Source of the DNA: Peribacillus frigoritolerans
Lineage (GTDB): Bacteria > Bacillota > Bacilli > Bacillales > DSM-1321
DNA: 64,000 bases
Direction of reading: 5' to 3'
Assembly: GCA_030562215.1 (NCBI GenBank)
Contig: JAUPFL010000002.1
Location: 62,001-126,000, forward strand
The stretch's first letter is position 1; each line of letters opens with the position of its first letter. Shown here piece after piece: positions 26,819 to 43,072 of the stretch. The notes under the pieces were generated by a model, which ran no database searches, was not told the DNA's origin, and worked only from the letters and a program-made list of their open reading frames with translations. Both the position numbers and the translations under genes were made by a program.

Positions 26819-26886
26819 GGTGCGTTAATTCAATAACCAGGTTGTTTTCGGCAGCCTTGCAATTAAAGGGGCAGGTTAAAATAAAT
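26819..26886 (+). repeat. Intergenic box-hairpin-box repeat, full copy
   Basis: The 5' box GGTGCGTTAATTCAATAA is followed by a hairpin (AGGTTGTTTTCGGCAGCCT) and a 3' box GGGGCAGGTTAAAATAAA. It is one of about 15 copies between 26.8 and 43.1 kb (see findings). Confidence 0.75.
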
Positions 26887-26930
26887 AGTTGAAGAATATA
26901 TAGAATAAACGGGAGGTGTGGAGGAGGAAA

Positions 26931-27617
26931 ATGAGGATAATAGAACTGCCAATTGAATTTGAATTTAATGGACAAAAAAATCACATTAATCCTAGCTTGA
27001 TTATTTCAAAGAATGAACTAACCTTGGTCGATACAGGGTATCCTGAATTTTTACCTTTCATTGAAAATGAAATTTTTAAAAATGGTTATGACATGAAGAA
27101 TTTAAAGAATATAATCATTACCCATTATGATATTGATCATATAGGCTCCTTATATGATTTCAAGGTAAAGTATCCTGACATTAACATTATCGCCAGTGAA
27201 GAAGAGTCAAAATATATTAGTGGTGAAATGAAGTCAGAGAGATTGGTTCAAGCTGAAGAAATGCTGGAAAATATGCCGATTCAAGAAATCGAATTCGGTA
27301 AATGGTTTATACACCAATTAAAGAATTTGAAGCATGTTTCAATTGATGAAATGGTACATGATGGTGATTGGATTTTGGATAACGAATGTAGAGTAGTAGC
27401 AACGCCAGGGCATACTTCAGGGCATATTTCATTATATTTTCCAAGTTTAAAAAGTGTAATAGCAGGTGACGCAGCTGTTAAAGAGAATCATGAATTGGTC
27501 ATTGCCAATCCACACTTTTGTTTAAATGTCGAGAAAGCAGAACAGTCTTTAAGAAAGATTAAAGATCTAAAAGCTGAAAACTACTATTGTTATCATGGTG
27601 GGACATTCACTTTATAA
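26931..27617 (+). CDS. Metallo-beta-lactamase-fold hydrolase
   Basis: Intact, 228 residues from ATG 26931 (GGAGGAGG upstream). Metal ligands are visible in THYDIDHIGS (HxxxDH, with Tyr at the second histidine position), TPGHTSGHISLY and AGDAAV, and the protein ends with YYCYHGG. It is of the glyoxalase II-like group. It lies alone between two copies of the intergenic repeat. The substrate is unknown. Confidence 0.88.
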   Translation: MRIIELPIEFEFNGQKNHINPSLIISKNELTLVDTGYPEFLPFIENEIFKNGYDMKNLKNIIITHYDIDHIGSLYDFKVKYPDINIIASEEESKYISGEMKSERLVQAEEMLENMPIQEIEFGKWFIHQLKNLKHVSIDEMVHDGDWILDNECRVVATPGHTSGHISLYFPSLKSVIAGDAAVKENHELVIANPHFCLNVEKAEQSLRKIKDLKAENYYCYHGGTFTL

Positions 27618-27636
27618 TGGAGTTTTGCTTATGATT

Positions 27637-27668
27637 GGAGCTGTCTTTAAAGGCAGCTTTTTCTTATG
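27637..27668 (+). terminator. Terminator, partial copy of the intergenic repeat
   Basis: GGAGCTGTC and AAAGGCAGCTTTTTC form the stem, followed by TTATG as in other copies, but no 3' box is seen. Confidence 0.75.
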
Positions 27669-27802
27669 TGTTTGAAGTTTTAAAATTAGTGAAGGTGGTG
27701 AGAGCTACGCTTATACAGAAAAAACCGAACTTCTTACAGTTCGGTCAAGCGAAGGTGGGGGAATATAACCTTTGGAATGAATTTTTGTAGAATCATAATA
27801 TC

Positions 27803-28273
27803 TTAATAATTCTGCTGTTCACTTCCAACAGGAAATGAAACCCCCATAGATCGTAAAGCTTCTTTTGCTTGATTTAAGTAGGATTCTGCTTGTTCTTGCC
27901 ATTTGATAATCACTTTAATGAAGGCAATATAATTAGGGCTTGCATTTTCCTCCATTATCTTTAATCCTTCACGTACTTTTTTATCTTGGGTTTCAGCATT
28001 CACTATACAAGCTGTCATTGTTTCTACAATGGTTTGCTGTTGCTCACCATTTTTTAGCCTTTGGGCTGACCCCACTGCGGTTACACGGTGATATGATGCT
28101 GGGATTAGATGGTTATGCATCTCGCGATTTCCTTTTAAATCTTTGGTTTCTGGTATATGGAAAAGCTCACTGCTCATAGCACATACCATTTCTTCAGCAT
28201 ATAAACTTTGGTGCAACATATATAAAATAGGTTCCCAGTTATTTACTCGATAATAATAATCATTCGGATACAA
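27803..28273 (-). CDS. Hypothetical protein, about 156 residues
   Basis: I choose TTG 28273 because AGAGGAG sits 8 nt upstream. A longer frame to ATG 28312 has no ribosome binding site. The product begins YPNDYYYRVNNWEPILYMLH and has a predicted helical C-terminal part (FIKVIIKWQEQAESYLNQAK). No signal peptide or known motif is recognised. Confidence 0.65.
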   Translation of the reverse strand: MYPNDYYYRVNNWEPILYMLHQSLYAEEMVCAMSSELFHIPETKDLKGNREMHNHLIPASYHRVTAVGSAQRLKNGEQQQTIVETMTACIVNAETQDKKVREGLKIMEENASPNYIAFIKVIIKWQEQAESYLNQAKEALRSMGVSFPVGSEQQNY

Positions 28274-28539
28274 AAAAACATCTCCTCTTTCAGTACATTT
28301 TATAGTTATCATTTAGGATCGAAATGAATGAAATTGTATTTTCCATCTTATGTTTATTAATGTTGTCCAGTTCAAATAATATTGAAGAGGTTAAACATGG
28401 ATAACTGATTCGTGAATGTCAAATTAAAAATGTAACTTTACCAAATTGGAGATGGAGACTGTTGCTGTCATTTTCCTGATTGGAGCATAAGATGATATAG
28501 CCCATTTATTCCTCATTAAAAATAAGGAGATGTTTATAT

Positions 28540-28650
28540 ATGTCAGGTTGTGAACAGGGTTTTGACCGCGGGTTTGGTTTTGGTGGAGGTTTCGCCTTAA
28601 TAGTCGTTTTGTTTATACTCTTAATCATTGTTGGATGTAATTGTTTTTAA
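28540..28650 (+). CDS. YjcZ-family small sporulation protein
   Basis: AAGGAGA precedes ATG 28540. The 36-residue product reads MSGCEQGFDRGFGFGGGFAL followed by IVVLFILLIIVGCNCF: a Gly-rich head and one membrane helix, the hallmark of YjcZ/YczN-type peptides common in Bacillus spores. Confidence 0.9.
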   Translation: MSGCEQGFDRGFGFGGGFALIVVLFILLIIVGCNCF

Positions 28651-28688
28651 GGCGGGAATGAGCGACTTCTGCTAAAAAAGCATAAAAT

Positions 28689-28714
28689 AGCCCGACCTTT
28701 ATTGGTCGGGCTTC
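28689..28714 (+). terminator. Terminator after yjcZ-like gene
   Basis: AGCCCGACC and GGTCGGGCT form a 9-pair stem ending in TT. Confidence 0.75.
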
Positions 28715-28761
28715 AACTGTAGATAATTGAGCCTGTCTGCAATTATTAAAAAACGTTCGGA

Positions 28762-28880
28762 GTTGATTTCAGAAATCCGCTCCCTTTCCGCCGACTGTCT
28801 GCCAAGCTTCCTCACCGCAAGCGGCTGTGGGGTCTCGGCTAGCCAGTTATTCGGCAGGAGTGTCGCAAATTTCTTCCATC
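28762..28880 (-). repeat. GC-rich dispersed repeat, copy 3a
   Basis: It starts with GTTGATTTCAGAAATCCGCT and contains CCGCAAGCGGCTGTGGGGTC and CGGCAGGAGTGTCGCAAAT. It is nearly identical to copy 3b 150 bp downstream. The 760 bp between the YjcZ-like gene and the MocR gene consist mainly of three such copies. Confidence 0.85.
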
Positions 28881-29029
28881 CATTAAGGATTACTGTAAAA
28901 AACCATGAAGGATAATTTAGTATTGTTTTAAAATCATGGATCGGCATTAAACCATTCCGTACCTCCGATAGTAGACAAATTCTAAGAAAGCCAGTTTGCC
29001 TACAGTTATTTTCTTTGAATTTGTCTACA

Positions 29030-29148
29030 GTTGATTTCAGAAATCCGCTCCCTTTCCGCCGACTGTCTGCCAAGCCTCCTCACCGCAAGCGGCTGTGGGG
29101 TCCCGGCTAGCCAGTTATTCGGCAGGAGTGTCGCAAATTTCTTCCATC
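29030..29148 (-). repeat. GC-rich dispersed repeat, copy 3b
   Basis: It differs from copy 3a at only a few bases over about 118 bp and has the same orientation. This suggests a recent local duplication. Confidence 0.85.
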
Positions 29149-29261
29149 TAATGAGGTTTCATTCCATATCGAAAAGTGAAAATTCATGAAGGATGACCAA
29201 GTCTTCTTTTATATGGTCCGGGGTGAGGCCATGCCGAAGATTTGTAGACCAAATCTTGAAC

Positions 29262-29385
29262 GTTGATTTTCACTCCAGGCACTCGCATTCCGCGGGCGGC
29301 CCGCCCTCGGCGCTTTTGCGCCTGCGGGGTCTCCGAAGACTCGCTTTTCTTGCAGGAGTCTCGCACCTTCCAAATCCAATCAATT
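29262..29385 (-). repeat. GC-rich dispersed repeat, copy 3c
   Basis: GTTGATTTTCACTCCAGGCA opens it. CGCATTCCGCGGGCGGCCCG and GCAGGAGTCTCGCACCTTCC follow. It resembles the copies at 4.6 and 18.5 kb more than 3a and 3b. Confidence 0.8.
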
Positions 29386-29411
29386 AGAATGGTTTTTTAA
29401 CTAGACTTGAA

Positions 29412-30799
29412 TCAGCCTAGATACTGCTTTAATATTTCTAATCCTATTTTTAACTCATCGAATGAGTTTGTGGAAGAAAGTGCAATACGCAAATACATAT
29501 CAGGAGTGGTTTGCCCGCTTTGAAAACGATTGGAATGAAAAACCCGAATACCGCGCCTTTTCAAATCCGTTTCCAGCTGTAACGCATCGTTATGCCCTTT
29601 AATTGGAAGCCAGCGATAAAGACTGAGAGGATGTCCGACATCCTTTCTTAAAGGGAAATATTCCGAATAAATATCATTTGCAGTCTGTGCAAGCCGTTTC
29701 TTATGAGAAACAATTTCATGAGCCTTGCCTGATAGGATTAGCTCTGTGATAACCTCTGCATCAAAAGAAGAGGTCTTTACATTTATGTTGAAAATGGCCT
29801 GGGAAATTTTCTCGCTAAAGGCATCCCCATAAACCATATAGGCAACTCTTAATCCAGAACATATTGACTTAGATGTGCCGCAAATATAAACGCTCTGTTC
29901 CGGAAGCAAATGGAACATCGGCTGCCTGTAGTCGGAGATGATGCCTGCTGTCAGAAATGCATGAATATCATCCTCAATCAAAATTAAACGATGCTTTCGG
30001 ATGACCTCAGCCAATTCTTGCTTTCGAATATCCGACATCATGATTGTGGTGGGATTGTTGCAAGAGGGCATCAGAAATATGCCGTCAATATTTGTTTGGC
30101 AACATTGCTTTTCAAGTTCATCTGGCAGCATTCCAAACTGGTCTCCGTGAATGGGCACTAACTTAATATGAAACATCTTTGCCAGCTCGATAAAGTTTGA
30201 ATATGTGTATAAGTCGGTTGCAATTCTATTACCAGGCTCAAATAAAGCAGCCAGGGCAACAGCCAATGCATTTTGGGCACCGGAAACGATTGCTATATGC
30301 TCTTGATCCGCGTGAATGCCGAAAGATTCCATCCAGTTTAGAGCTGCTGTTTTTTGATGTGGAATACCAGTCGGATCGTTGTAATTCAAGAGCTGCTCCA
30401 AATAACTTTTGTTCACGGTTTTTTGAATGGTTTCTGAAACAATATCATTGGTTTGCTCAAAAGATGCCACAAAACCAAGATCAATGCTGTTTGCCGTTTT
30501 ATCCGCGGAAATGGTTATGGAACGAGTGGCATTAGGAGCCACAAAGGTTCCGCTTCCCGTAACGGCATATATTAATCCCTTTACCTCGCATATTTTATAG
30601 GATCGGGTAATCGTGGTGAAGTTTAAGTCAAGAAAATCTGCCAATTCTCGTTGAGGGGGCAACTTGGTTCCAGGTGCTAAAAACCATTTGTTATATCTTG
30701 TTCAAGTAATGATGCGAGAGATTTATAAAAAGGACGCTTTAATGCATTCTTATCAGGTTTCCAAGACATTGGATAATTGTCAAATGAATTTACTGGCAT
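29412..30799 (-). CDS. MocR-family regulator (GntR HTH plus PLP aminotransferase domain), one single-base shift
   Basis: ATG 30799 follows AGAGGTG. One T missing (A run 30679-30683 on the plus strand) separates the start, which encodes the GntR winged helix (PFYKSLASLLEQDITNGFLA then APGTKLPPQRELADFLDL). The rest is a fold-type I aminotransferase, with IVSGAQNALAVAL, SCNNPTTIM, IEDDIHAFL and the PLP lysine in CGTSKSICSGLRVAY. About 462 residues. It diverges from azlCD, and paired inverted repeats lie between them, so it very likely controls azlCD in response to an amino-acid-derived ligand. Confidence 0.88.
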
Positions 30800-30819
30800 A
30801 CTTCACCTCTACTATCTTA

Positions 30820-30851
30820 TTCCATACAATCATATCATTTTTTGTATGGAA
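30820..30851. promoter_or_regulatory. Putative MocR operator 1
   Basis: TTCCATACAA and TTGTATGGAA are perfect 10-bp arms with a 12-nt spacer, 21 bp upstream of the MocR start. Confidence 0.65.
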
Positions 30852-30905
30852 TTCTAATATTGAAACGGTCTGCTTTATAAGAATATAAGGTGATAAACGT
30901 ATCAG

Positions 30906-30937
30906 TACCCCCATTTTGATGAAATGGGGGTATTTTA
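30906..30937 (+). terminator. Terminator-like hairpin in the MocR-azlC intergenic region
   Basis: TACCCCCAT and ATGGGGGTA form a stem followed by TTTTATTTT. It lies between the two operator-like repeats, upstream of azlC. It may be an attenuator or may insulate the divergent promoters. Confidence 0.65.
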
Positions 30938-30948
30938 TTTTAATTGTA

Positions 30949-30980
30949 ATCCATACAATTAACTTGTTTTTTGTACGGAT
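30949..30980. promoter_or_regulatory. Putative MocR operator 2
   Basis: ATCCATACAA and TTGTACGGAT have the same layout as operator 1 (10-bp arms, 12-nt spacer), 48 bp upstream of azlC. One arm position is mismatched. Confidence 0.65.
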
Positions 30981-31027
30981 TTTGTATGTTAAGTTTAAAT
31001 AAATTTACCCACCAGGATGTGATTTAT

Positions 31028-31741
31028 ATGAAAAAACGAACTCAAATGATACCTGCATTTCGTGCGGCTTTTCCGTACACAGCGCCCATTTTGGCAGGCT
31101 TTTTATTTTTGGGCATCGCTTATGGAATCTTTATGAATTCATTAGGGTTCAGTGCGATTTACCCGATATTGATGAGCCTAACGATATTTGCAGGATCGAT
31201 GGAATTTATTGCAGCCAATTTATTGCTTGTCGCGTTCAATCCGATTAATGCCCTTTTTCTAACCTTAATGGTGAATGCACGGCATTTGTTTTATGGCATA
31301 TCCATGCTCGATAAATATAGGGGGACCGGTAAGAAAAAGCTGTATCTGATTTTTGGGCTTTGCGATGAGTCTTTTTCCATCAATTGTACCGTTGATGTAC
31401 CGAAGGATGTAGACAAGGGCTGGTTTATGTTCTTCGTGACACTGCTCAATCATTCCTATTGGGTGATAGGGTCAGCGATTGGCGGCATTTTTGGCTCTTT
31501 TGTCAAATTCAATACAGAAGGACTCGATTTTGTTATGACGGCTCTCTTTGTAGTGATTTTCATTGAACAATGGATGAAAGAGAAAAACCATCATAGTGCT
31601 CTCGCTGGGCTTGGCCTGTCTGCTGTCTGTCTTATTATTTTTGGAGGAAGCAATTTCATTATCCCTGCCATGTTTGCCATTTTGGGGGTACTCACCTTAC
31701 TTAGAAAACCATTAGAGAAAGTTGAGGTGAGAACCATATGA
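31028..31741 (+). CDS. azlC: Branched-chain amino acid exporter, large subunit
   Basis: An intact AzlC-type protein of 237 residues from ATG 31028. It has [34 protein letters not shown] and [12 protein letters not shown], the family hallmark region, and multiple membrane spans. It overlaps azlD by ATGA. AzlCD pairs export branched-chain amino acids and analogues. The divergent MocR is the probable regulator. Confidence 0.92.
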
Positions 31742-32069
31742 CAATGACTTTAACACAGCAAATCATTACAATCGCGATGGTTGTTTTAGGCACAATGCTT
31801 ACAAGATTTCTTCCCTTCATCGTTTTCCCATCAGGTAAGCCCACACCGAAGTATGTACAGTATCTCGGTAAAATGCTGCCATCCGCGGTAATTGGGCTTT
31901 TGGTCATTTATTGTTTAAAGGATGTAAGCTTACAATCCGGAAGTCATGGCATCCCTGAATTTATTGGGGTGGCGGTAGTTGCCCTGCTTCACGTTTGGAA
32001 GAAAATGATGCTCCTCTCGATAGCGGGGGAACGATTGTCTACATGATGCTGGTGCAATTGGTTTTTTAA
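31738..32069 (+). CDS. azlD: Branched-chain amino acid exporter, small subunit, one single-base shift
   Basis: About 110 residues with [20 protein letters not shown] and [20 protein letters not shown], typical of AzlD. One G missing in run 32025-32029 cuts the raw frame at 32046. Restored, the C-terminus is [15 protein letters not shown]. Confidence 0.9.
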
Positions 32070-32133
32070 ATTGATAATAGTCGGGAACTCAAAGTAACAA
32101 TGATATCAATGGTATTGGAAGGGGCAGGTAATA

Positions 32134-32583
32134 GTGAAAAAGAAAATTGATGAATATCAAATTTATGAAAAACACTATGAACAAATTCATGAGCAAGTGA
32201 AAAACGATCCGTATGCTAAATCGTTAGGCATCCAGTTAACCAAATTCGAGGCAGGTACTGCAGAAGCAACGTTAGAAGTGCAAAGCACTATGGTAAATGC
32301 ATATGGAACTGTTCACGGTGCGGTTATTTATGCTGTAGCAGATCATGCTTTTTCGGTAGCCTGTAATGCCTATGGCAAAACATCATTAGGACTCTCGACA
32401 ACAATCCAGTTCATTGAATCAGCTAAACCAGGAGACAAGATAGTGGCCCGTGCAACGGAAGTCAAACGAAACTATCGGACAGGATTTTATCGGATAGACG
32501 TCCTGCATGAGCAAAACCTGATCGCGACCATGGATGCAGTGTCATACCGTAAGGATCATTATTTTATTGAAGTTGATGAATAA
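32134..32583 (+). CDS. PaaI-type hot-dog thioesterase
   Basis: Intact, 149 residues starting at GTG 32134 behind AGGGGCAGG. The segment NAYGTVHGAVIYAVADHAFS is the PaaI/4HBT active-site region (HGG-like loop plus catalytic Asp). It probably hydrolyses an aryl- or acyl-CoA. It lies downstream of azlCD and is followed by a copy of the hairpin repeat. Confidence 0.88.
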   Translation: MKKKIDEYQIYEKHYEQIHEQVKNDPYAKSLGIQLTKFEAGTAEATLEVQSTMVNAYGTVHGAVIYAVADHAFSVACNAYGKTSLGLSTTIQFIESAKPGDKIVARATEVKRNYRTGFYRIDVLHEQNLIATMDAVSYRKDHYFIEVDE

Positions 32584-33040: not shown

Positions 33041-33100
33041 AGGGGTGTCTTTTAAGGCAGCTCTTTTCTTATGGAACAAAATGGCCAGATTAGGTGAAGG
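33041..33100 (+). repeat. Intergenic box-hairpin-box repeat copy
   Basis: GGGGTGTCTTTTAAGGCAGC then TCTTTTCTTATGGAACAAAA and GGCCAGATTAGGTGAAG show the hairpin, tail and a variant 3' box. Confidence 0.65.
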
Positions 33101-33223
33101 ACTATTACATGAATAGTGGAATTATAATAAATGGACTATATTTTGAACTGTAGTCCAAGGTTCCTTAAAAGTTGCTTGATTTTAATAAGTTTAAATCAAT
33201 TGCATAGTAAGGAGAATTTCAGT

Positions 33224-33868
33224 ATGAAAATAAAATGGTTTGGACATTCTGCCTTTTTACTAACATCCGAAAGAGGAACCAGGATTCTTATTGATCCATA
33301 TTATCGCTTCATCCGTTACCGTATGCCAAGCATTGAACCAGATATAGTTGCCGTTACACATAATCATTTCGATCATAATAAAATTCAAGCTGCAACAGGT
33401 GATTACTTGCTTGTGAATGAGCCGAAGGAATACATCCGCGAAGATGTAAGAATTAGTGGATTCAAGACATTTCACGACAAGGCAAATGGCGAGAAGAGAG
33501 GCCCCAATATTTTATATCGTTTCCAAATGGACGACCTAACTATCTGTCATTGCGGAGATTTAGGGCATCTATTATCAGAAGAACAAGTAAATGAAATTGG
33601 AAAAGTAGATATTCTCATCATTCCTGTAGGAGGTACAGTCACGATCAATGCAATAGAAGCTGCTCAGGTAATGCGTCAATTGAAATCTACTATTACGATC
33701 CCTATGCACTATAGAACAAAGGCATTGTCGGTTGTTGGCTTGATGTTTTCAAAGGTAGATAAGTTTCTTCAGATTTCCGGACAGCGAACAACCGAAGTTA
33801 AGACATTGGATATTTCCAAAGGAAATTTGTCGGAATATGCTGGTGTCGTTACCATGCTCTATGAATGA
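33224..33868 (+). CDS. MBL-fold hydrolase, UPF0173/UlaG-like group
   Basis: ATG 33224 follows AAGGAGAA. The 214-residue protein starts KIKWFGHSAFLLTSERGTRI and has THNHFDHN, FHDKANGEKRGPNILYRF, CHCGDLGHLL and IPMHYRT, the metal-binding pattern of the UPF0173-like metal-dependent hydrolases. It is intact. It lies between repeat copies at 33041 and 33965. Confidence 0.87.
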   Translation: MKIKWFGHSAFLLTSERGTRILIDPYYRFIRYRMPSIEPDIVAVTHNHFDHNKIQAATGDYLLVNEPKEYIREDVRISGFKTFHDKANGEKRGPNILYRFQMDDLTICHCGDLGHLLSEEQVNEIGKVDILIIPVGGTVTINAIEAAQVMRQLKSTITIPMHYRTKALSVVGLMFSKVDKFLQISGQRTTEVKTLDISKGNLSEYAGVVTMLYE

Positions 33869-33964
33869 TTGTAAGGCTGCGATGTGGATTTAATATACAA
33901 TGATTGCGATGTCTAAAAAATGTTGCGACAGAAGCATGAATGGATAAGATATCCTGTTAATAAC

Positions 33965-33988
33965 CAAAGGACAGGTTAGTTCAAGAAC
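33965..33988 (+). repeat. Intergenic repeat, isolated 3' box
   Basis: AAAGGACAGGTTAGTTCAAG matches the 3' box (consensus GGGGCAGGTTAGTTGAATAA) without the preceding hairpin. Confidence 0.6.
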
Positions 33989-34075: not shown

Positions 34076-34478
34076 ATGACAATAAAAAAGTAAAAAGTAT
34101 CCTATTCTTTGTTCTTGGTTCCATATCTCTTTTGATTGGTATTGCAGGGACAGTGTTACCAGTTCTGCCGGGCGGTCCGTTTTACTTATTTGCTGCCTTT
34201 TGCTTTGCGAAAAGTTCCAAGTCGATTGAAAACTGGTTCAAGAGCACCTCACTATATGAAAACTACGTTGAAGCATTCCTGCAAAAAAGGGCATGACCCG
34301 AAGAGAGAAAATCAGAATCAATTTAATTGCCGATTTCTTCATCGTAATTTCTGTATTTTATGTGGACATCCTATTAGTGAAAATCTTATTGGTCGTGCTC
34401 GCCCTCTACAAACATTATTATTTCATCAAAAAAATTAAGACAATTGACCGAAACAGTTCGGAAAAAAGAGCTTTTTGA
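34076..34478 (+). CDS. DUF454 (YbaN-like) inner membrane protein, two single-base shifts
   Basis: ATG 34076 follows AAAGGTG. Restoring an A at 34086-34091 and an A in 34283-34288 yields about 134 residues: FFVLGSISLLIGIAGTVLPV, LPGGPFYLFAAFCFAKSSKS and WFKSTSLYENYVEAFLQKKG. These are diagnostic of DUF454/YbaN. Four membrane segments. The function is unknown. Confidence 0.85.
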
Positions 34479-34480
34479 AC

Positions 34481-34550
34481 CTTCAAATAAAGGAGTTGCT
34501 TCGGCAGCTCTTTTCTAATGGAGCTACCGGGGCAGGGGAGTAGAACATGA
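34481..34550 (+). repeat. Intergenic box-hairpin-box repeat copy
   Basis: CTTCAAATAAAGGAGTTGCT, TCGGCAGCTCTTTTCTAATG and GAGCTACCGGGGCAGGGGAG follow each other: 5' box, hairpin, tail and 3' box. Confidence 0.75.
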
Positions 34551-34769: not shown

Positions 34770-35476
34770 ATGAATTTAGAAATGGTCATGCAGGAGCTCG
34801 AAGCCCTTGGCAAGGAACGAACTAAAAAAATGTACATATCCAATGGTGCGCATGAGCCGCTCTTTGGCGTGGCGACAGGAGCCATGAAACCAATTGTAAG
34901 GAAAATAAAAATAAATCAGAGTTTAGCTGAAGAGCTTTATGCGACAGGCAACTATGATGCAATGTACTTTGCAGGCATTATTGCAGACCCAAAAGCCATG
35001 ACTGAGTCGGATTATGATCGTTGGATGGATGCTGCGTATTTTTATATGCTGTCCGATTACGTAGTGGCTGTAACTTTATCAGAGTCAGATATTGCACAAG
35101 AAGTTTCTGATAAATGGATTGCAAGCGGTGAAGAGCTGAGAATGTCAGCCGGCTGGAGTTGCTACTGTTGGCTTTTAGGGAATCGACAAGACGTTGAATT
35201 TTCAGAAAGCAAGATTTCCAATATGCTTGACCTTGTGAAAAATACGATTCACGATTCGCCAGAACGGACGAAATCCGCTATGAATAACTTTTTATACACC
35301 GTGGGGATTTCATATTTGCCGCTCCATGAAAAGGCAGTCGAGACCGCAAAGGCAATAGGAACCGTAGAAGTCAAACGGGACAAGAAAAAAGCAGTTTTCT
35401 GAATGCTTACGAAAGTATTCAGAAAGAAGTCGGTAAAGGAAAGCTTGGTTTTAAACGCAAGCATGTAAGATGTTAA
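34770..35476 (+). CDS. DNA alkylation repair protein (AlkD-like HEAT repeats), C-terminal single-base shift
   Basis: The protein starts MNLEMVMQELEALGKERTKK, then KMYISNGAHEPLFGVATGAM and LPLHEKAVETAKAIGTVEV, as in the DNA alkylation repair family. A T missing in 35396-35399 truncates the raw frame at 35402. Restored, it ends in AYESIQKEVGKGKLGFKRKH VRC, the basic tail found in these proteins. About 235 residues. It may excise or tolerate alkylated bases. Confidence 0.87.
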
Positions 35477-35545: not shown

Positions 35546-35599
35546 GTAAACAGCCTTCAATTTATCTTCCCAATGATCCTTGTTAAGCTAACAGGTTCG

Positions 35600-35668
35600 A
35601 TACTTCATTACAGGAGCTGATCAGCAGCTCCTTTTCTAATGGAACTATCGGGGCAGTTTAGTTTAATA
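35600..35668 (+). repeat. Intergenic box-hairpin-box repeat copy
   Basis: CAGGAGCTGATCAGCAGCTC is a strong hairpin, followed by CTTTTCTAATGGAACTATCG and GGGCAGTTTAGTTTAATAAG. Confidence 0.75.
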
Positions 35669-35864: not shown

Positions 35865-35884
35865 TTAAATTTCTAATTCAAGTA

Positions 35885-35935
35885 ACGGGTGCGTTAGCTG
35901 AAGATCGGAGCTGTCTAAGGCAGCTCTTTTTTAAA
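35885..35935 (+). repeat. Intergenic repeat, 5' box plus hairpin
   Basis: ACGGGTGCGTTAGCTGAAGA then TCGGAGCTGTCTAAGGCAGC and a T run. The 5' box is clearly related to the 3' box sequence. Confidence 0.7.
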
Positions 35936-35979: not shown

Positions 35980-36621
35980 ATGAGTAAAGCAATTATTTTT
36001 GATATGGATGGAACCTTATTTCAAACGAATTTAATTTTAGAACCTGCCCTAGAAGAAACATTTGATGTACTACGAAAAGAAAATTTATGGGATACAAAAA
36101 CACCGATTGAACAATATAGGAAAATTATGGGTGTGCCTATACCAGTTGTATGGGAAACACTTTGCCCAAACCACTCACTAGAAATACGAGTAAAGAGCAA
36201 TGAGATTTTTCATAAAAAGCTTATAGAACTAATCCAAGCACAAAAAGGTGCATTATATGCTGATGTGGAGAGAACATTAAATGAGTTGAGTAAAAAGTAT
36301 CCCTTATTTATTGCCAGCAATGGACAGATAGAATATTTACAAGCAATTGTAGAAACATATAATTTGGATAGATTTATTCAAAATACATATAGTATCCAAC
36401 TAATTAAATCTGGACATAAATCAGATTTAGTGCAAATGGTGAAAAATAAAAATCAAATTGAAAATGGTTACGTTGTCGGAGACCGTTCTTCAGATATATC
36501 TGCTGCTAAGGATAATGAACTTATTGCCGTTGGTGTGAACTTTGACTTTGCTCAAGAAGATGAATTAAAACAAGCTGATTTTGTAGTGAATAATTTCAAA
36601 GAAATCTTAGAGTTAGTTTAA
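35980..36621 (+). CDS. HAD-family hydrolase (phosphoglycolate phosphatase-like)
   Basis: An intact 213-residue protein. Motif I is IIFDMDGTLFQTN (nucleophilic Asp), motif II LFIASNGQ, motif III Lys in IKSGHKSDLV, and motif IV NGYVVGDRSSDISAAKDNEL. The cap lies between motifs I and II. The substrate is unknown. Confidence 0.9.
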   Translation: MSKAIIFDMDGTLFQTNLILEPALEETFDVLRKENLWDTKTPIEQYRKIMGVPIPVVWETLCPNHSLEIRVKSNEIFHKKLIELIQAQKGALYADVERTLNELSKKYPLFIASNGQIEYLQAIVETYNLDRFIQNTYSIQLIKSGHKSDLVQMVKNKNQIENGYVVGDRSSDISAAKDNELIAVGVNFDFAQEDELKQADFVVNNFKEILELV

Positions 36622-36701: not shown

Positions 36702-36737
36702 CCCTTAATGAACTATCCGGGCAGGTTAGTTGAATCA
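36702..36737 (+). repeat. Intergenic repeat, tail plus 3' box
   Basis: CTTAATGAACTATCCGGGCA then GGTTAGTTGAATCA. The associated hairpin is not the usual one. Confidence 0.7.
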
Positions 36738-36843: not shown

Positions 36844-37128
36844 GTGGATTATGGATTATTGGTTATTGGTATAGCTCTTTTACTTATATCGTACTTAGTA
36901 GCTGTAAAAAAAACAAACCTGGTTGTTAGCAGGGTTTAATGAAAAAATGATAAAAAATAAGTCTTTATTAGGTACAGTGACAGGTGGAACTTTTTTCTAC
37001 CGTTAGGATTGTTAGTAGTTTTCAATAGTTTTATTGACTATCCTTATGAATTTACGGTTCTTATAATTGCTATGTTGCTTTTATTAACAATTGTATATGT
37101 TTTTATTAATAGAAGGTTACTTGACTGA
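36844..37128 (+). CDS. DUF3784-like small membrane protein, two single-base shifts
   Basis: GTG 36844 starts MDYGLLVIGIALLLISYLVA. Restoring an A in run 36906-36913 and a T in 36991-36996 gives KKKQTWLLAGFNEKMIKNKS then LLGTVTGGTFFLPLGLLVVF and two more spans, about 95 residues. LLAGFN(E) followed by K-rich residues is the DUF3784 hallmark. The unshifted frames are all short. It lies between repeat copies at 36702 and 37141. Confidence 0.7.
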
Positions 37129-37140
37129 AAGGTGCTATAG

Positions 37141-37210
37141 CTTTATTGAGCTGGACGATCACGATCAGCTCTTTTTCTTATGCAACTATCGGGGCAGTTT
37201 AGTTGAATAA
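37141..37210 (+). repeat. Intergenic box-hairpin-box repeat copy
   Basis: GAGCTGGACGATCACGATCA then GCTCTTTTTCTTATGCAACT and ATCGGGGCAGTTTAGTTGAA. All parts are present. Confidence 0.8.
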
Positions 37211-37323
37211 CAGTTGCAGAAATCAGTATGAAATCCTTACTTCCATGCAGGAAGTAAGGATTTTTTGTTGAACAAATAAAATTAGAATATTATGGAATTT
37301 ATTGCGTGAATGGAGAGGTTAAT

Positions 37324-37770
37324 ATGTCGTTTATGATGGTCAAAAAAGAATTTAAGCTTGTTGGATTAAAAGGTAGTGGAGAGTTTGTTAACTTTGGTAA
37401 TGAAGTACCCTTGCTTGCAAAGCAACTATTAAGTCGCTCAAACGAAATACTAAATCCAACAGAGACCGAAATTGCATTATTTGAGCCTAAAAAGGATGAG
37501 GAGCATAGGATAGGTCATTATTATGTAGGGTTAATTGTGAGTGAGAAATTAAATGAAGTACCAACAGGAATGGATTATATTGAAATAAATAAAAGTTACA
37601 TAACTACAAGAGGAAATATATCTAATTTGGGGGAACTTCATTTAAATTTATTGAATTGGGCAGAAGAACAAGGTTATCAAAGAGATCTCGATTCTTATAT
37701 TATCGAGACATATCACCTTATGGGGGAAGGAGATGAAGAAGTACAGATTTATTTACCAATTCAAGTTTAA
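37324..37770 (+). CDS. GyrI-like/AraC effector-binding-domain protein
   Basis: ATG 37324 follows GGAGAGG. The 148-residue protein has the effector-binding fold (KEFKLVGLKGSGEFVNFGNE.. HYYVGLIVSEKL.. YIIETYHLMGEGDEEVQIYL) known from the C-terminal half of Rob and from SbmC/GyrI. There is no DNA-binding domain. It is a stand-alone ligand-binding protein that is often of unknown role. Confidence 0.78.
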   Translation: MSFMMVKKEFKLVGLKGSGEFVNFGNEVPLLAKQLLSRSNEILNPTETEIALFEPKKDEEHRIGHYYVGLIVSEKLNEVPTGMDYIEINKSYITTRGNISNLGELHLNLLNWAEEQGYQRDLDSYIIETYHLMGEGDEEVQIYLPIQV

Positions 37771-37787
37771 AAGACAAATCAAAAATC

Positions 37788-37820
37788 TTCTTCAACAAAC
37801 GGGGCAGGTTAGTGGAATGA
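37788..37820 (+). repeat. Intergenic repeat, 3' box
   Basis: CTTCAACAAACGGGGCAGGT then TAGTGGAATGA keep the tail and 3' box without a hairpin. Confidence 0.65.
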
Positions 37821-38007
37821 AAAGTGAATTAATCCATTATTATCTTTATTATGTTAACTGCATAAATCAGTTGTACAGAGATAATAAAGTTGTTTAATTT
37901 GCAATTATTTTGCGGTAATGAAATTAAATATCAAATAAAGGAAATATCTTCTTGACAGTCGAATATTAGTCTAGAACCATAATTATATTCCGATGAGGAG
38001 GATTCTT

Positions 38008-38517
38008 GTGCGTCCACGACCATTATTTATTGAAAATCCAGAGCATGATAGGTATGTTAGTCTTGTGCCAGATGGAGATATTGTAGAAATACTTAGTAAG
38101 CAACGAACTAAGACCATTACCCTTTTAAGCAGCGTATCAGAGGAGTCAGCAAGGAAGGCGTACGCACCAGGGAAATGGACTTTAAAAGAAGTGATTGGGC
38201 ATATGACCGACTCGGAACGTGTAATGTCGTATCGAATGCTCGCCATTGCACGAAATGAAAGTGCACCACTCCCAGCAATGGATCAGGATCAATACGTTTC
38301 TGCGGCAAACTTCAACAAATTATCCTGGGAGCAGTTACTAGCTGGTTTAGACACGGTACGTTCCAACACGTTAAGCCTTATTTCAACCATTGATGATGCA
38401 GCGTGGGTTCGTAATGGAACTGTAATGAACAGCCCAGTTTCAATAGGTACCATTGCATATGGCATTGCCGGGCACGAGTTACACCATATGAAAGTGATTA
38501 GTGATAAATACTTATAA
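38008..38517 (+). CDS. DinB-family protein (four-helix, putative metal-dependent)
   Basis: GTG 38008 lies 6 nt after GAGGAGG, so I reject the in-frame ATG 37993 that contains the site itself. The 169-residue product has APGKWTLKEVIGHMTDSERV (first His), SYRMLAIARNES and GIAGHELHHMKVISDKYL (final His pair), the DinB/YfiT metal triad. It may be a thiol-dependent transferase. Confidence 0.85.
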   Translation: MRPRPLFIENPEHDRYVSLVPDGDIVEILSKQRTKTITLLSSVSEESARKAYAPGKWTLKEVIGHMTDSERVMSYRMLAIARNESAPLPAMDQDQYVSAANFNKLSWEQLLAGLDTVRSNTLSLISTIDDAAWVRNGTVMNSPVSIGTIAYGIAGHELHHMKVISDKYL

Positions 38518-38533
38518 GTCTTTTTCTATTAAT

Positions 38534-38581
38534 GAAAAAACCTAATTTCTCATTTAATGCTAAGAAATTAGGTTTTTTAAT
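38534..38581 (+). terminator. Terminator after dinB-like gene
   Basis: AAAACCTAATTTCT and AAGAAATTAGGTTTTTT form a long A/T-rich stem with a T run. Confidence 0.85.
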
Positions 38582-38809
38582 AAGGAACACAAAAATGATC
38601 GATCTTTTTTATAAAAGAATAATTCAATTTAATAGTATAAGGGCATGTTTTGATTTATCTTTTTCAAAACATGCTCTTTTATTTATCCATTTATCAAGGT
38701 TTCTTGTATTAATTTGATCAGACTTGTTTCAAAGCTACATCTTTATAAATTAACAAAAATTACCTGCCTTAGTTATAATAGATGGAAATAGAAAAAAGGT
38801 GGATATTAT

Positions 38810-39648
38810 ATGAAATTATCAATACTTGTAGATAATAATACATTGATTGATCGCTACTTCTTCGGAGAACCAGCACTTTCTTTTTTATTGAAGAGGGTAA
38901 TAAACGGATTTTATTTGATACTGGATACTCTGATGCTTTTATAAAAAATGCAGAGAAGATGAGAATTGATCTAAGGGACTTAGATTGGGTTGCCTTATCA
39001 CACGGACATGTCGATCATACATGGGGAGTCACGCATTTAATTAGGTTGCATATGGAAGCAAAAGGTGAGCTCATAATACATAATACGCCTACAATCATTG
39101 GTCATCCTTTAGTTTTTGAAAGCAAATTACTGGATTCAGTAGGTGAGATAGGAAGTATCTTATCTTACAATAAATTAAGCAGACATTTCCCTATTCACTT
39201 ATCTAAACAACCATTTTGGCTGACAGATAAATTAGTGTTTTTAGGTGAAATTAAGAGAAAATTTGATTTTGAAGGTAAAGAAGTTATCGGAAAAGTTGCT
39301 ACTACAAAAGAAGAATTTGACGATTATGTTTTTGATGATACTGCATTAGTATATAAATCATCTGAAGGGCTAGTTATTATGGTAGGATGTGCTCATTCTG
39401 GAATATGTAACATTATTGAATATGCTAAAGAAGTATGTGAGGAAGAAAGAATAGTAGATGTCATAGGAGGATTTCACTTATTGAATCCATCAAATTTTCA
39501 ATTAGAGAACACTGTAAAGTATATAAAAGAACTTAGACCCAATAAGCTTCACGCTTCTCATTGTACAGATTTACATTCTAAGATAGCTCTATCCACAGTT
39601 GCTGATATAGAGGAAGTGGGAGTAGGTTTACAACTAGAATATTTCTAG
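38810..39648 (+). CDS. MBL-fold hydrolase, 7,8-dihydropterin synthase-like group, one single-base shift
   Basis: AAAGGTGG precedes ATG 38810. The N-terminus MKLSILVDNNTLIDRYFFGE joins, after restoring one T in 38881-38886, to IEEGNKRILFDTGYSDAF. Metal ligands are in ALSHGHVDHTWG, VGCAHSGICN and HASHCTD. These fit the group annotated as 7,8-dihydropterin-6-methyl-4-(beta-D-ribofuranosyl)-aminobenzene-5'-phosphate synthase-like. About 280 residues. The substrate in Bacillus is unknown. Confidence 0.85.
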
Positions 39649-39794
39649 ATCAATTATATAGGTCCCTAGAACGCTGATTATGGTAATTAAGGTTTTACAT
39701 ATAACTGTTTGATCATTAAAGATCTAGTTTTAAAATCAAGTCGTACCATTTTGAATAAAGTTTAATCGTTTATACAAATGATAAACCGAAATCA

Positions 39795-39850
39795 ATACTT
39801 GATTTTGGTTTTCCTTAATGAACTATCGGGGCAGGATAGTTCAAGACAAC
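39795..39850 (+). repeat. Intergenic repeat with a different hairpin
   Basis: The hairpin AAACCGAAATCAA/TTGATTTTGGTTT is unlike other copies, yet it is followed by the same tail and box: CCTTAATGAACTATCGGGGC then AGGATAGTTCAAGA. The 390 bp between the MBL and LURP genes otherwise hold a short frame (39849-39917, ending IADFKKGKLVKDK) that may be a gene remnant. Confidence 0.65.
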
Positions 39851-40041
39851 AATTGGGCCAGATTGCGAAGGAAGAATTGCAGATTTTAAAAAAGGTAAAT
39901 TAGTTAAGGATAAATAGTGGTGAACCGAAAAGAAGGCGCTTTTCAGTGGAACTATTATTTGGAATTTAATGCATAAGATTGGAACCAATGGCCATTTCAA
40001 ACGTAAGTAATGTAAAAGGCTTAAGGTTGGGAGGCATAAGT

Positions 40042-40539
40042 ATGAGGCAGCTTTATATAAAGCAGAAAGTATTCAGTCTTAGCGGGAAATTTACAGTAAA
40101 GGATCAGCAGGAGAAGGATATATATTACGTGGAGGGAAGTTTTATGCAAGTTCCAAAGACTTTCTCCATTATGAATACAGCAAGAGATGAAGTAGCACTC
40201 ATTACGAAAAAGGTGTTCAGCTTTTTACCAAAGTTTTTGGTTGAGGTGAATGGTCGAGAGGTATTAACAATAAAGAAGGAATTTTCCTTCGTAAAAGCAC
40301 GATATACAATGGATGCGGCAGGCATTGAAGTACATGGTAATTGGTGGGATATGGATTTTCAAGTTTTACAGCATGGTAAAATCGTAGGTAAAGTGGGCAA
40401 AGAGTGGTTCACTTGGGGCGATAGCTACAAGGTTCAAATAATAGATGAAGAGATGGAAACCATTATTATTGCACTCGTTGTTGCAATTGATTGTGTGAAG
40501 GCTGATCAAGCAGCTGCTTCCTCAGCAGCGTCGATTTAA
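40042..40539 (+). CDS. LURP-one-related (Tubby-like fold) protein
   Basis: ATG 40042 follows GGGAGGC. The 165-residue product starts MRQLYIKQKVFSLSGKFTVK and contains VEGSFMQVPKTFSI, VEVNGREVLTIKKEFSF and WFTWGDSYKVQIIDEEME, the strand pattern of LURP-one/YxjI proteins. The function is unknown. It is intact. Confidence 0.85.
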   Translation: MRQLYIKQKVFSLSGKFTVKDQQEKDIYYVEGSFMQVPKTFSIMNTARDEVALITKKVFSFLPKFLVEVNGREVLTIKKEFSFVKARYTMDAAGIEVHGNWWDMDFQVLQHGKIVGKVGKEWFTWGDSYKVQIIDEEMETIIIALVVAIDCVKADQAAASSAASI

Positions 40540-40660
40540 AGTAGAAGTGTAAAATTAAAAGTTTTTAAAAAATCACTGCTTGAATAGGTGCGGTGAACCA
40601 TATCATAAATAAATGACAATGCTATTTGGTTAAAAAAGGTAAAAACCTTGTTGGACTAAA

Positions 40661-40738
40661 AGTGCGTTCGTTCAATAATACAGGTTGCTGAGGCAGCCTT
40701 TTTCTTATGGCACAAAAGGGGCGGGTTCGTTCAAATAG
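40661..40738 (+). repeat. Intergenic box-hairpin-box repeat, clearest full copy
   Basis: The 5' box is AGTGCGTTCGTTCAATAATA, the hairpin is CAGGTTGCTGAGGCAGCCTT, the tail is TTTCTTATGGCACAAAA, and the 3' box is GGGGCGGGTTCGTTCAAATA. The 5' and 3' boxes are direct repeats of each other (GTTCGTTCAA shared). The rest of 40540-40866 holds nothing that I recognise. Confidence 0.85.
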
Positions 40739-40866
40739 AGGAACTTACCTATAAAGGGAAGGATTTTGGACGATGAATAAAAAAGAAAATGAGCTCTAAA
40801 AGTGAAATTTTTGAAATTGGTCAAACTAGTGGTATCGATTGATCATTGAAATATTTATAAAAAATG

Positions 40867-40917
40867 TTGACAAAGTCCACTAATGACAATAAAGTATTAG
40901 TGGATAAAGTCCACTAA
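40867..40917 (+). promoter_or_regulatory. Promoter with overlapping MarR operator
   Basis: TTGACA (40867) and TAAAGT (40890) are 17 bp apart. TCCACTAA at 40876 lies in the spacer, and TTAGTGGA-TAAAG-TCCACTAA (perfect 8-bp arms) lies just after the -10 region at 40897-40917. This arrangement predicts autorepression of the MarR gene that follows. Confidence 0.75.
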
Positions 40918-40931
40918 AAAGGAAGTCAATA

Positions 40932-41390
40932 ATGAATATAAATAAAAATACCATTGCTGATATCCGGCAATTCAACAGATTTTATACGAATATACTTGGT
41001 GTATTGGATAAGCATATTTTGGATACAGGATATTCTTTCACTGAGGCACGGGTAATTTTAGAAATCGGTTTGATGGAGCAGTGTATCGCAAACAATTTAG
41101 TTGATAAACTGGAAATTGATCGCAGCTATATGAGCAGAATAATTAACAAGTTAAGAAAAGATGGACTGGTTATGAAGGAAAACTCGACCTTGGATAACAG
41201 AACGATTCTGATTCGGCTGACTCCTGAAGGGATGACTGTTTTTAACCAGCTTAATGATAGATCTGATGAACAATTAGTGAGGTTATTCCAAGGATTATCA
41301 CAAAATGAAATAAAAGAAATCCATGCTTCTATGATGTTCATTCAGAAGAAATTGGATGGTTTGGGGAGATTAAAGGATGATACGTTTTGA
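40932..41390 (+). CDS. MarR-family transcriptional regulator
   Basis: Intact, 152 residues. The winged helix is visible as NNLVDKLEIDRSYMSRIINK then KLRKDGLVMKENSTLDNRTI (DxRxx wing). It overlaps the following gene by 14 nt. The inverted repeat in its promoter suggests autorepression and control of the adjoining enzyme. Confidence 0.9.
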   Translation: MNINKNTIADIRQFNRFYTNILGVLDKHILDTGYSFTEARVILEIGLMEQCIANNLVDKLEIDRSYMSRIINKLRKDGLVMKENSTLDNRTILIRLTPEGMTVFNQLNDRSDEQLVRLFQGLSQNEIKEIHASMMFIQKKLDGLGRLKDDTF

Positions 41391-42452
41391 AAATGATTAT
41401 ACAGAAGGTGCTCATAAGCGAATTCTGAAACGATTAATAGAAACCAATGAAGAACAAACACCCGGATATGGAGTGGATGAACACTGTGAAAAAGCGAGAG
41501 CTTACATTCGAAAAGAGTGTGATGCCGCGAATGCGGATATACACTTTTTAGTCGGAGGAACACAAACGAATACAACTATTATCGCTTCAATTTTGCGGCC
41601 GCATCAAGGGGCTGTTGCTGCAATTACCGGTCATATCGCGGTGCATGAAACAGGGGCAATTGAAGCCACTGGTCATAAAGTGCTTACTTTGCCGAGCGAT
41701 GATGGAAAAATTCAAGCTGAACAAGTGAAAGAATTATATGATGCTCACTGGAATGATGTTACTCATGAGCATATGGTACAGCCAGGTTTGGTTTACATTT
41801 CTAACCCTACAGAAAATGGAACGACTTATAGTAAAGCCGAATTGGAAGCGTTAAGTAGAGTTTGCCGGGAATGTGGTTTGCCATTGGTATTGGATGGCGC
41901 TAGATTAGGATATGGCTTGGCTTCGAAAGACAGCGATTTAACCTTGGCGGATGTTGCAAGGCTATGTGATGTGTTCTATATAGGGGGAACGAAAGTTGGG
42001 GCAATGTTTGGTGAAGCGGCAGTCATCATGAATGATGCCCTGAAAAAGGACTTCCGCTATTTCATCAAGCAAAAGGGAGGAATGCTGGCTAAAGGGAGAC
42101 TTTTGGGGATCCAGTTTGAAACATTATTTGAAGATGGCTTATACCATGAAATTTCTAAACATGCCGTGGAAATGTCAATGATGATTCGAGAAGCATTTGT
42201 TGAAAGTGGATATTCATTACGATATGATTCCACATCAAATCAGCAATTTCCCATCTTGCCGGAAGATGTAATTTTGGAATTAGGCAAAAAATATTCATTC
42301 TCCTTCTGGGAAAAAGTCGATGCTACACACAGTGCTGTGAGATTTTGTACCAGTTGGGCTACGAAAAAGAACATGTTGACATGCTGGTAGAGGATATCAA
42401 GGCAACAAAAGGAGAAAAAAATGGCCACGATAGAGTTACATTTAGAGAATAA
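41377..42452 (+). CDS. Threonine aldolase-like PLP lyase, C-terminal single-base shift
   Basis: The fold-type I beta-eliminating lyase family is shown by FENDYTEGAHKRILKRLIET, FLVGGTQTNTTIIASILRPH, LVYISNPTENGTTY, LPLVLDGARLGYGL and the PLP lysine in YIGGTKVGAMFGE. A G missing near 42363 cuts the raw frame at 42390. Restored it ends SWATEKEHVDMLVEDIKATK then GEKNGHDRVTFRE. About 358 residues. It probably cleaves L-threonine or another beta-hydroxy amino acid. Confidence 0.88.
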
Positions 42453-42508
42453 CACCTAACGTTAAAAAGGACTTCTTAGCTATTAACTGGTCTGTATCAT
42501 GTGAATAA

Positions 42509-42578
42509 TACTACTTCAATAAGGGAGTTGCTTCGGCAGCTCCTTTTCTAATGGATGTAATGCCAGGGTAGTTCAACA
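42509..42578 (+). repeat. Intergenic box-hairpin-box repeat copy
   Basis: CTACTTCAATAAGGGAGTTG, CTTCGGCAGCTCCTTTTCTA then ATGGATGTAATGCCAGGGTA and GTTCAACAG. The 3' box is diverged. Confidence 0.7.
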
Positions 42579-42626
42579 GTGCTGTTAGATCTTTGGTCAA
42601 CGAATGGGCTAGATAATAGGATTTAG

Positions 42627-43035
42627 GTGAAATGCAGGAGATGTTTTGGAGGGGTATTTTACCTTTTCCCTGGCTGTGGACAAGAACACGGCGAAACCAT
42701 TCATAATGCATTATTAAGAGAGTGTATTGAAGAGGTTGGAAAAAGAAGTGGAAATTGGAGAGCTGCTTCATATTCGTGAGTATATAGGAAAAAACCACGA
42801 GCATTCTTCATTCAATTTTAATGTTCACCAAGTTGAATACTATTTTGTTTGCAACCTGGTAATTGAGAAGAATTATAAATCGCCTACCAATCCAGATAGT
42901 CACCAAGTAGGGGTAGAATGGATACATATTAATGATTTACTTCAGTATAGGATATATCCTAAAGAACTAAGGAAATATATCATACAGCATGTTAATAATC
43001 TAAAGTCTCCAGTTTATTTAGGGGATATTAATTGA
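42627..43035 (+). CDS. Nudix hydrolase, apparently 5'-truncated, one single-base shift
   Basis: The Nudix box is clear: [20 protein letters not shown] then [18 protein letters not shown]. An extra A in run 42740-42744 breaks it. The C-terminal half ([20 protein letters not shown]) is intact. Only about 12 residues precede the FPG motif where family members have 30-40, and a repeat copy ends 50 bp upstream. The N-terminus may have been lost at the repeat. The GTG start at 42627 is weak. Confidence 0.6.
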
Positions 43036-43039
43036 AATC

Positions 43040-43072
43040 TTGTTCAACAAACCGGCGCGATGCTTTAATAAG
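43040..43072 (+). repeat. Intergenic repeat, decayed 3' box
   Basis: TTGTTCAACAAACCGGCGCG then ATGCTTTAATAAG resembles the 37788 copy. Confidence 0.45.

Follow-up and report, generated by a model that had tools for sequence, protein, structure and literature searches.

Background

Integrons are the classic example of a dedicated recombinase that captures genes. According to the accessible parts of two articles they are defined by folded, single-stranded attC sites (PMC9668308, PMC4792948), and the accessible part of a 2008 survey notes no integrons in 103 genomes of Firmicutes (PMC2426708). Recombination of plasmid sites by XerCD, as described in the portion available of a further article, needs closely related central regions (PMC11705084). 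Here we compare with these systems a locus of Peribacillus frigoritolerans (order Bacillales), a stretch of 64,000 nucleotides (assembly GCA_030562215.1, contig JAUPFL010000002.1, positions 62,001 to 126,000) which we call the window. Between about 26.8 and 43.1 kb of the window, small genes alternate with copies of an intergenic repeat. A sequence-only reading had likened this layout to a gene-cassette array, each gene carrying with it a terminator that doubles as a recombination point. That comparison proved largely right: judging from its sequence, the region very probably belongs to an integron-like array of gene cassettes, part of a Bacillales system of site-specific recombination that has a dedicated Xer-like recombinase.

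Results

The element and its boxes

The full element consists of two boxes, left and right, with a terminator hairpin and its T run between them. The left box reads AACTAAC-GGGTGC-GTTAGCTGAA and the right box AACTAAC-GGGGCAG-GTTAGTTGAA, the arms AACTAAC and GTTAGTT of the latter flanking the spacer GGGGCAG. The two boxes had been described as direct repeats of each other, which is correct but incomplete, as each is also an inverted repeat around a short asymmetric spacer, and the spacer ranks among the best-conserved parts of the box. The terminator hairpins vary among copies (GGAGCTG..CAGCTCC, GGTTGCT..GGCAGCC, AAATCAATACTTGATTT) while the boxes stay constant; in a sample of 200 of the 805 sites, the 43 nucleotides before the box have a mean fold energy of -8.4, compared to -5.0 after shuffling.

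Scored with a weight matrix, the window contains eight strong right boxes on the plus strand (boundaries 33089, 34536, 35657, 36725, 37198, 37808, 39835 and 40725; 27 to 59 bits) and a weak one (boundary 33975; 8.2 bits), and five left boxes lie in the region (starts 26811, 35586, 35880, 37123 and 43046; 12 to 33 bits). In 60 Markov resamples of the window the top right-box score was 10.2, with a mean count of 0.1 above 7 bits, and the mean count of left boxes above 8 bits was 0.83. The repeat noticed at the outset is therefore real. Twelve of the 16 positions first proposed for it hold a scoring box of their own (33965 weakly), and the other four (27637, 32607, 35501 and 42509) are remnants with terminator and tail. 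One more sequence resembling a left box (17793; 13.4 bits) falls outside the array region.

No Rfam family matched positions 24000-46000 of the window (E up to 1). We found no description of the element in a literature search whose scope did not extend to bioRxiv or most subscription journals, and queries with stretches of the element sequence returned only papers that were apparently unrelated by title and the start of the abstract, the matches probably being primers.

Units, orientation and mobility

For a wider sample we scored 907 right boxes in 177 loci (2.53 Mb, with overlapping copies of one genome's contigs partly removed). Neighbouring boxes less than 3 kb apart lie on the same strand in 632 of 640 pairs and on opposite strands in eight. 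In an earlier set the boxes delimit 479 units with a median length of 764 bp, whose longest open reading frame (ORF) runs along the site orientation in 394, against it in 53, and falls short of 60 residues in 32; exactly one ORF of at least 80 residues is present in 291 of the 447 ORF-holding units. Copies of the element thus do cluster around single small genes, as had been predicted. A search for Sigma-A promoters in the first 200 bp of units gave no excess (247, versus 245 on the other strand and 271 in shuffled sequence, of 432).

Homologous units in different places show where exchange has occurred. Among 18 pairs homologous over the whole unit (at least 80% identity), homology ends within 40 bp of both boxes in 14, three of which represent one unit family. 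We also examined 32 pairs that have both boxes and homologous gene ends; in 22 of them the homology stops within the right box, in three within the left box, in three before it and in four beyond. We located the exchange more closely with a crossover test on pairs of at least 90% identity, uncorrected for phylogeny: position -8 goes with the upstream unit (0.77, unrelated pairs 0.51; 34 families), positions 0 (0.75 versus 0.51) and +1 (0.86 versus 0.59) go with the downstream unit (35 families), and upstream homology leaves position 0 at control level (0.50 versus 0.51). Since the upstream signal reaches to -8 and the downstream signal begins at 0, we place the crossover in GGGGCAG. Over 27,284 bp two plasmids of P. 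frigoritolerans are 99.9% identical; they diverge directly after GGGGCAGT, and their next common block starts in a left box. Two Viridibacillus species have in common two neighbouring units (98.3 and 99.7% identical), a block that ends 9 and 29 bp from box boundaries.

A linked clade of Xer-like recombinases

A Phage_integrase search of ten genomes identified a family of Xer-like tyrosine recombinases of about 279 residues, some of them encoded beside arrays. Residues R138, K162, H228, R231, H254 and Y263 are invariant in six of six proteins and presumably represent the catalytic R-K-H-R-H-Y set. The recombinase aligns with XerD (17-277 to 11-285) and is of Xer-like length, without large insertions. 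Among NCBIfam models, two of the proteins score 206-207 bits with XerD (cut-off 329.6), 201-202 with XerC (335.15) and 201-208 with XerA (220), and thus do not pass the equivalog cut-offs of housekeeping XerC and XerD; with the integron integrase models they reach 97-98 bits (TIGR02249; cut-off 265) and 57-69 bits (NF011946; cut-off 435). The best solved relatives are likewise Xer proteins (XerD, 103 bits; IntI4, 48 bits). A structure prediction for the recombinase, made with four sequences, had a mean predicted local distance difference test (pLDDT) score of 47.6 and was not used.

A profile of the family matches 59 of 299 genomes of the order at E 1e-70, with at least 390 bits in 50 and a next lower match of 323 bits; in three of the 50 (G032, G100 and G231) a stop lies inside the best match, two of these being partial. 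In a tree, 21 recombinase rows (19 different; 12 of 33 loci tried gave no row by the filter) form one clade apart from the XerC/XerD-like proteins of ten genomes (100/98). Across the phylum, eight of 398 genomes match at E 1e-70, three with at least 370 bits, two of these three being from the same order; phage records hold distant matches only (eight records, 28.9 to 34.3% identity).

The clade is linked to the boxes. We collected 40 recombinase neighbourhoods from 39 of the 50 genomes, each at most 20 kb long and together about 726 kb; 30 contain right boxes (148 sites above 13 bits; none in reversed sequence), compared to none that scores in the 66.9 kb around 19 XerC/D-like genes from the ten genomes of the initial search. 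Five of the 40 loci, from four genomes in two genera, have their first box 51-53 bp behind the recombinase stop codon, and one of these, L209, carries an IS110-type end behind the box; other clades have their nearest box at a greater distance and mostly in opposite orientation. At least six sites occur in nine of 50 genomes with the recombinase versus six of 249 without it (Fisher p = 1.2e-4), and at least one site in 24 of 50 versus 66 of 249 (p = 0.003).

A second type of spacer accompanies the recombinase in G207 and G296, two genomes of another family with no consensus right box at all. Boxes beside their recombinase genes have the same arms around the spacer GCGCCA (TGGCGC in the other orientation); G207 holds 18 within 4 mismatches in 56 kb, in two groups of one orientation each, with none for the reversed pattern. 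No such box was found in the 11 and 14 kb fetched from G100 and G231, which belong to the same family, and a search of plasmids for the variant spacer gave one weak match (E 6e-3).

Pairs of a large and a mid-sized tyrosine recombinase also adjoin boxes at L141 (plasmid CP084540; 2053-5574 and 25821-29426), G234:C8:96260-98504 and G251:C4:1560-3786. On CP084540 a DUF6262 gene accompanies the pairs, with a JAB-domain (RadC-like) gene near. Pairs with DUF6262 we take to be Tn554-like.

Proposed mechanism

Box anatomy and breakpoints are both consistent with a tyrosine recombinase that acts on two-armed boxes and exchanges strands within the spacer, the way Xer sites recombine. In the mechanism we propose, a unit comprises mostly one small gene, sometimes a few, and ends in a left box-terminator-right box element. 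The recombinase of about 279 residues would bind a box as double-stranded DNA at its two 7-bp arms, and strands would be exchanged in GGGGCAG, the asymmetric spacer. Two boxes recombining with each other would release the unit between them as a circle, which could then enter another box, such as the one just behind the recombinase gene; the recombinase as catalyst, the circular intermediate and the entry point are the parts that we infer. As the spacers agree and point the same way, excision and insertion would keep arrays collinear.

Distribution across genomes and plasmids

The genome from which the window comes (5.375 Mb, three contigs, 87% complete) contains the right-box core in five clusters among the places listed: C1:54-197 kb, C1:1311-1390 kb, C1:2364-2371 kb, C1:2835-2905 kb and the window. 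Each has one orientation among those places, minus in the first and plus in the other four, and isolated matches to the core also occur outside the clusters. A 17-base core with up to 3 mismatches gives 65 + 63 matches in this genome versus 39 + 26 for the reversed pattern, so that single loose matches are not specific, and the 24-base right box gives 27 + 27 versus 0 + 0. Matrix sites in the stretches fetched from the five regions number 60, 31, 4, 33 and 8 in array orientation and 5, 3, 0, 4 and 1 in the opposite one, counted before the removal of overlapping palindromic double hits. The array in the window, partly decayed, belongs to a larger set.

Beyond this genome, the 24-base right box (up to 3 mismatches) is present in 90 of 299 genomes of the order, representing 47 of 116 genera, and its reversed pattern in none. 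Exact matches, among those listed, come from Peribacillus, Viridibacillus, Paenisporosarcina, Sporosarcina, Psychrobacillus, Solibacillus, Lysinibacillus, Ureibacillus, Cytobacillus, Metabacillus, Mesobacillus, Pontibacillus, Fictibacillus, Oceanobacillus, Domibacillus and others. The right box is found on 21 plasmid records, including two small plasmids (5,990 and 11,426 bp) with one element behind a single gene each; phage records gave no matches to the element.

Two of the home arrays start with broken integrases of phage or integrative and conjugative element (ICE) type (L010 near 9579-10112 and L015 near 6426-6969), which on reading look to us to be of Tn916/phage type. The home arrays may sit in old islands, their starts marked by such integrases at a groEL-like end (C1:1309579) and a tRNA-like sequence (C1:2361426). 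As candidates for the catalyst the two were rejected, as they do not match the linked family.

Insertions at the boxes

Group IIC introns target attC sites. In the arrays, the 5' end of a group II intron lies directly behind a left- or right-box spacer at 13 of 13 listed places, 12 of them distinct (L140:3685; L142:11552, 12746, 26439 and 37226; L204:17981; L205:8697; L208:10167; L209:11799; L214:14986; L226:3590; L121:122). A 10-base IS110-type end lies directly behind the right-box spacer at 16 listed places, 13 of them distinct, out of 40 occurrences in the fetched DNA (L142:3655 and 27170; L012:16562; L016:14453; L017:758; L019:15751; L020:4344; L024:2083; L109:3816; L140:12075; L195:3343; L209:16109; L245:10343); these ends sit at two positions of the box, and a transposase is annotated at the two L142 places. 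Elements of the IS1111 family are described in the accessible part of one article as targeting attC sites (PMC11187229). The sample is biased, since the end sequences were read off copies inserted at boxes and the loci had been selected for the boxes they contain; it shows repeated insertion at one point of the box and does not give a rate.

The array in the window

All features of the array lie on the plus strand. The first is a left box (26811-26833; 24.8 bits), followed by the hairpin GGTTGTTTTCGGCAGCC and a degenerate right box with 6 mismatches in 24 (26861-26884), behind which lies a metallo-beta-lactamase (MBL)-fold hydrolase gene (26916-27617; PF00753, 81 bits). At 27637-27667 the element is reduced to a terminator hairpin and tail with no scoring box. 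A terminator and right box (33041-33098; 29.4 bits, boundary 33089) precede a unit gene for a second MBL-fold hydrolase (33131-33868; PF13483, 170 bits), the weak right box (33961-33984; 8.2 bits) and a further terminator with right box (34492-34545; 35.0 bits, boundary 34536). The unit gene at 34770-35402 encodes an AlkD-like DNA alkylation repair protein (PF08713, 71 bits); behind it lies a full element (35586-35666) with a left box at 35586 (17.7 bits), the terminator GGAGCTGATCAGCAGCTCCTTTT and a right box at 35643-35666 (56.1 bits). A left box (33.3 bits) and terminator whose right box does not score (35880-35935) are followed by a HAD-family hydrolase gene (35980-36621; PF13419, 58 bits) and a right box (36711-36734; 40.4 bits).

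The next full element (37123-37207; left box at 37123 with 12.3 bits, terminator, right box at 37184-37207 with 58.6 bits) precedes the gene at 37306-37770, labelled GyrI-like in the sequence-only reading. Its sole Pfam match, just below the cut-off (26.2 bits, cut-off 27.0), is to Cass2, a family named 'integron-associated effector binding protein'. A right box (37794-37817; 27.3 bits), a DinB superfamily gene (37993-38517; PF12867, 73 bits), a right box after a different terminator hairpin, AAATCAATACTTGATTT (39821-39844; 49.6 bits), and a LURP-one-related gene (39979-40539; PF04525, 52 bits) follow. The element at 40661-40734 has a decayed left box (none above 2.4 bits), a terminator and a right box at 40711-40734 (42.8 bits); a remnant at 42524-42580 retains a terminator with a right box too degenerate to score, and a lone left box (43046-43068; 15.0 bits) is the last trace of the array.

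The units of the window thus contain small enzymes and regulators. The labels DUF454, DUF3784, GyrI-like and Nudix were taken over from the sequence-only reading, and the two ORFs at the DUF454 and Nudix places have no Pfam match. Genes at 34136-34478, 38811-39648 and 42391-43035 look frame-shifted on reading, through decay or sequencing error, which fits the low completeness (87%) of the three-contig assembly. Tandem 21-base repeats lie at 26106-26273, and a direct repeat of 131 bases, 95% identical, at 28761-28891 and 29029-29159.

Discussion

Points that weigh against a cassette system with its own recombinase

Several observations count against the reading that we favour. The recombinase itself was not found in the window's genome by profile search of the 87% complete assembly, and it is missing from six of the 15 genomes with at least six sites, this genome included; the expectation that a recombinase gene would accompany high copy numbers is thus borne out by a distinct clade and fails in these genomes. 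More widely, 26 of 50 genomes with the recombinase have no consensus right box while 66 of 249 without it have at least one, and the Fisher tests given above ignore the common ancestry of the genomes. The choice of neighbourhoods was not random, as about nine of the 40 already had a known box on the same contig (the remainder giving about 21 of 31), and ten of the 40 lack a consensus box, two of these ten holding the variant type. The array points along the recombinase gene in some clades and the opposite way in others.

The sites themselves add further difficulties. A scoring left box accompanies 315 of 649 right boxes only, leaving about half with no recognisable left box; left boxes also act as breakpoints in a few cases (three of the 32 ends, and the plasmid pair), which a model with one site leaves unexplained; and in the variant genomes it is the left box that is conserved and the right box that is degenerate. 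The right-box matrix was trained on the arrays of the home genome, window included, so that home counts are not independent of it; loci outside that genome are independent of the training, and most were fetched because they hold a box. Finally, the movement of a gene together with its element, which the sequence-only reading had proposed, is supported by the box-ended homology and the spacer crossover and not by the exact gain or loss of one unit between collinear flanks, which we looked for and did not find: three one-sided gaps were seen, none bounded by boxes on both sides, and the best pair of strains differs at one box junction.

Alternative explanations

It is possible, though unlikely, that the cassettes are real and that another enzyme moves them, either host XerC/XerD, as for pdif sites, or the recombinase pairs at array sides, with the 279-residue recombinase as a passenger. 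This would account for the arrays of the window's genome, where that recombinase was not found, and for the pairs beside arrays in CP084540 and those of similar size less than 2 kb from boxes in G234:C8 and G251:C4; it also fits that plasmid sites are recombined by XerCD when their central regions are closely related (PMC11705084, as far as the accessible part goes). However, the two arms of a box match as an inverted repeat, whereas XerC and XerD bind different arms, and the box at 51-53 bp in five loci, together with the changed spacer beside the recombinases of two genomes of another family, argues for the 279-residue recombinase.

We consider it distinctly improbable that the arrays are true integrons overlooked in Bacillales, with an IntI-type integrase and attC sites folded as single strands. 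The outward features would be the same (a recombinase nearby, one-way units, left and right two-armed sites, recombinase-free arrays), as would the parasites, IS110-type ends and group II introns at box spacers. However, two of the proteins score 97-98 bits with TIGR02249 compared to 201-208 with the XerC, XerD and XerA models, and the boxes do not vary as folded sites might. Across 801 right boxes, Watson-Crick counts between arms are near expectation, the largest excess being 19 of 801. Between left and right boxes (366 elements) none of the 13 testable pairs of 14 shows excess covariation, one is significantly below expectation, and the remaining pair is too invariant to test. One of seven left-box pairs, L5-L14, does covary (292 Watson-Crick pairs versus 276 expected, p 2e-6), which speaks for folding. 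Low variation of the arms limits the power of these tests, and the spacer is highly conserved. With this limit, the lack of covariation within the right box and between boxes speaks against folded sites of integron type, and attC-type folding between the boxes was rejected on the interbox result.

Slightly less probable still is an ordinary family of dispersed terminators or small repeats, bcr- or REP-like and shuffled by homologous recombination or other mobile elements, since, for all that many elements carry a terminator-like hairpin (-8.4 versus -5.0), that repeats can seed homologous recombination, that four of the 18 whole-unit pairs continue past one or both boxes and that a literature on bcr repeats exists for the B. 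cereus group, the hairpins vary while the boxes stay, 632 of 640 neighbour pairs are co-oriented, units bounded by the repeat have moved (14 of 18 pairs) with breakpoints in a 7-bp spacer, one recombinase clade is linked to the boxes, and no box scores in the 66.9 kb around XerC/D-like genes.

Implications

For the array system with a dedicated Xer-like recombinase, we lean towards a broader interpretation as a second, separately evolved kind of integron in Bacillales, with its own Xer-derived clade, boxes of double-strand type, a spacer that changes between lineages, terminators borne by the units, and genes for small enzymes shuffled among the chromosomes and plasmids of dozens of genera. 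If so, the cassette-array lifestyle arose more than once, and the system would help to explain variable small-gene regions in Peribacillus, Viridibacillus, Paenisporosarcina and their relatives. It would also offer a simple recombinase and 24-bp site for comparison with IntI and attC, and a way to test what draws IS110-type elements and group II introns to cassette sites.

Comparison with known systems

The bcr and other interspersed repeats of Bacillus resemble the element as short intergenic repeats with hairpins; to our knowledge neither gene-bounded unit mobility nor a linked recombinase is known for these repeats. The pdif/xrs modules of Acinetobacter plasmids (XerC/XerD) are alike in having genes bounded by two-armed sites of tyrosine recombinases, but here neighbouring sites are nearly all direct repeats, arrays run to dozens, and the recombinase forms a separate clade. 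Integrons share the recombinase gene beside the array, in some clades with a box just behind it, the arrangement of small unrelated genes in arrays that point one way (632 of 640 neighbour pairs; 394 of 479 units with the ORF in site orientation), the occurrence on chromosomes and plasmids, the existence of arrays with no recombinase (the window's genome being comparable with attC clusters that lack an integrase), and sites into which IS110-type elements and group II introns have inserted. They differ in that the Bacillales recombinase is Xer-like and far under the IntI cut-off, that the sites keep their sequence and spacer with no interbox covariation of the arms, and that many units carry terminators. 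Given the IntI score and the covariation results, the system would function like an integron and is not classed here as one.

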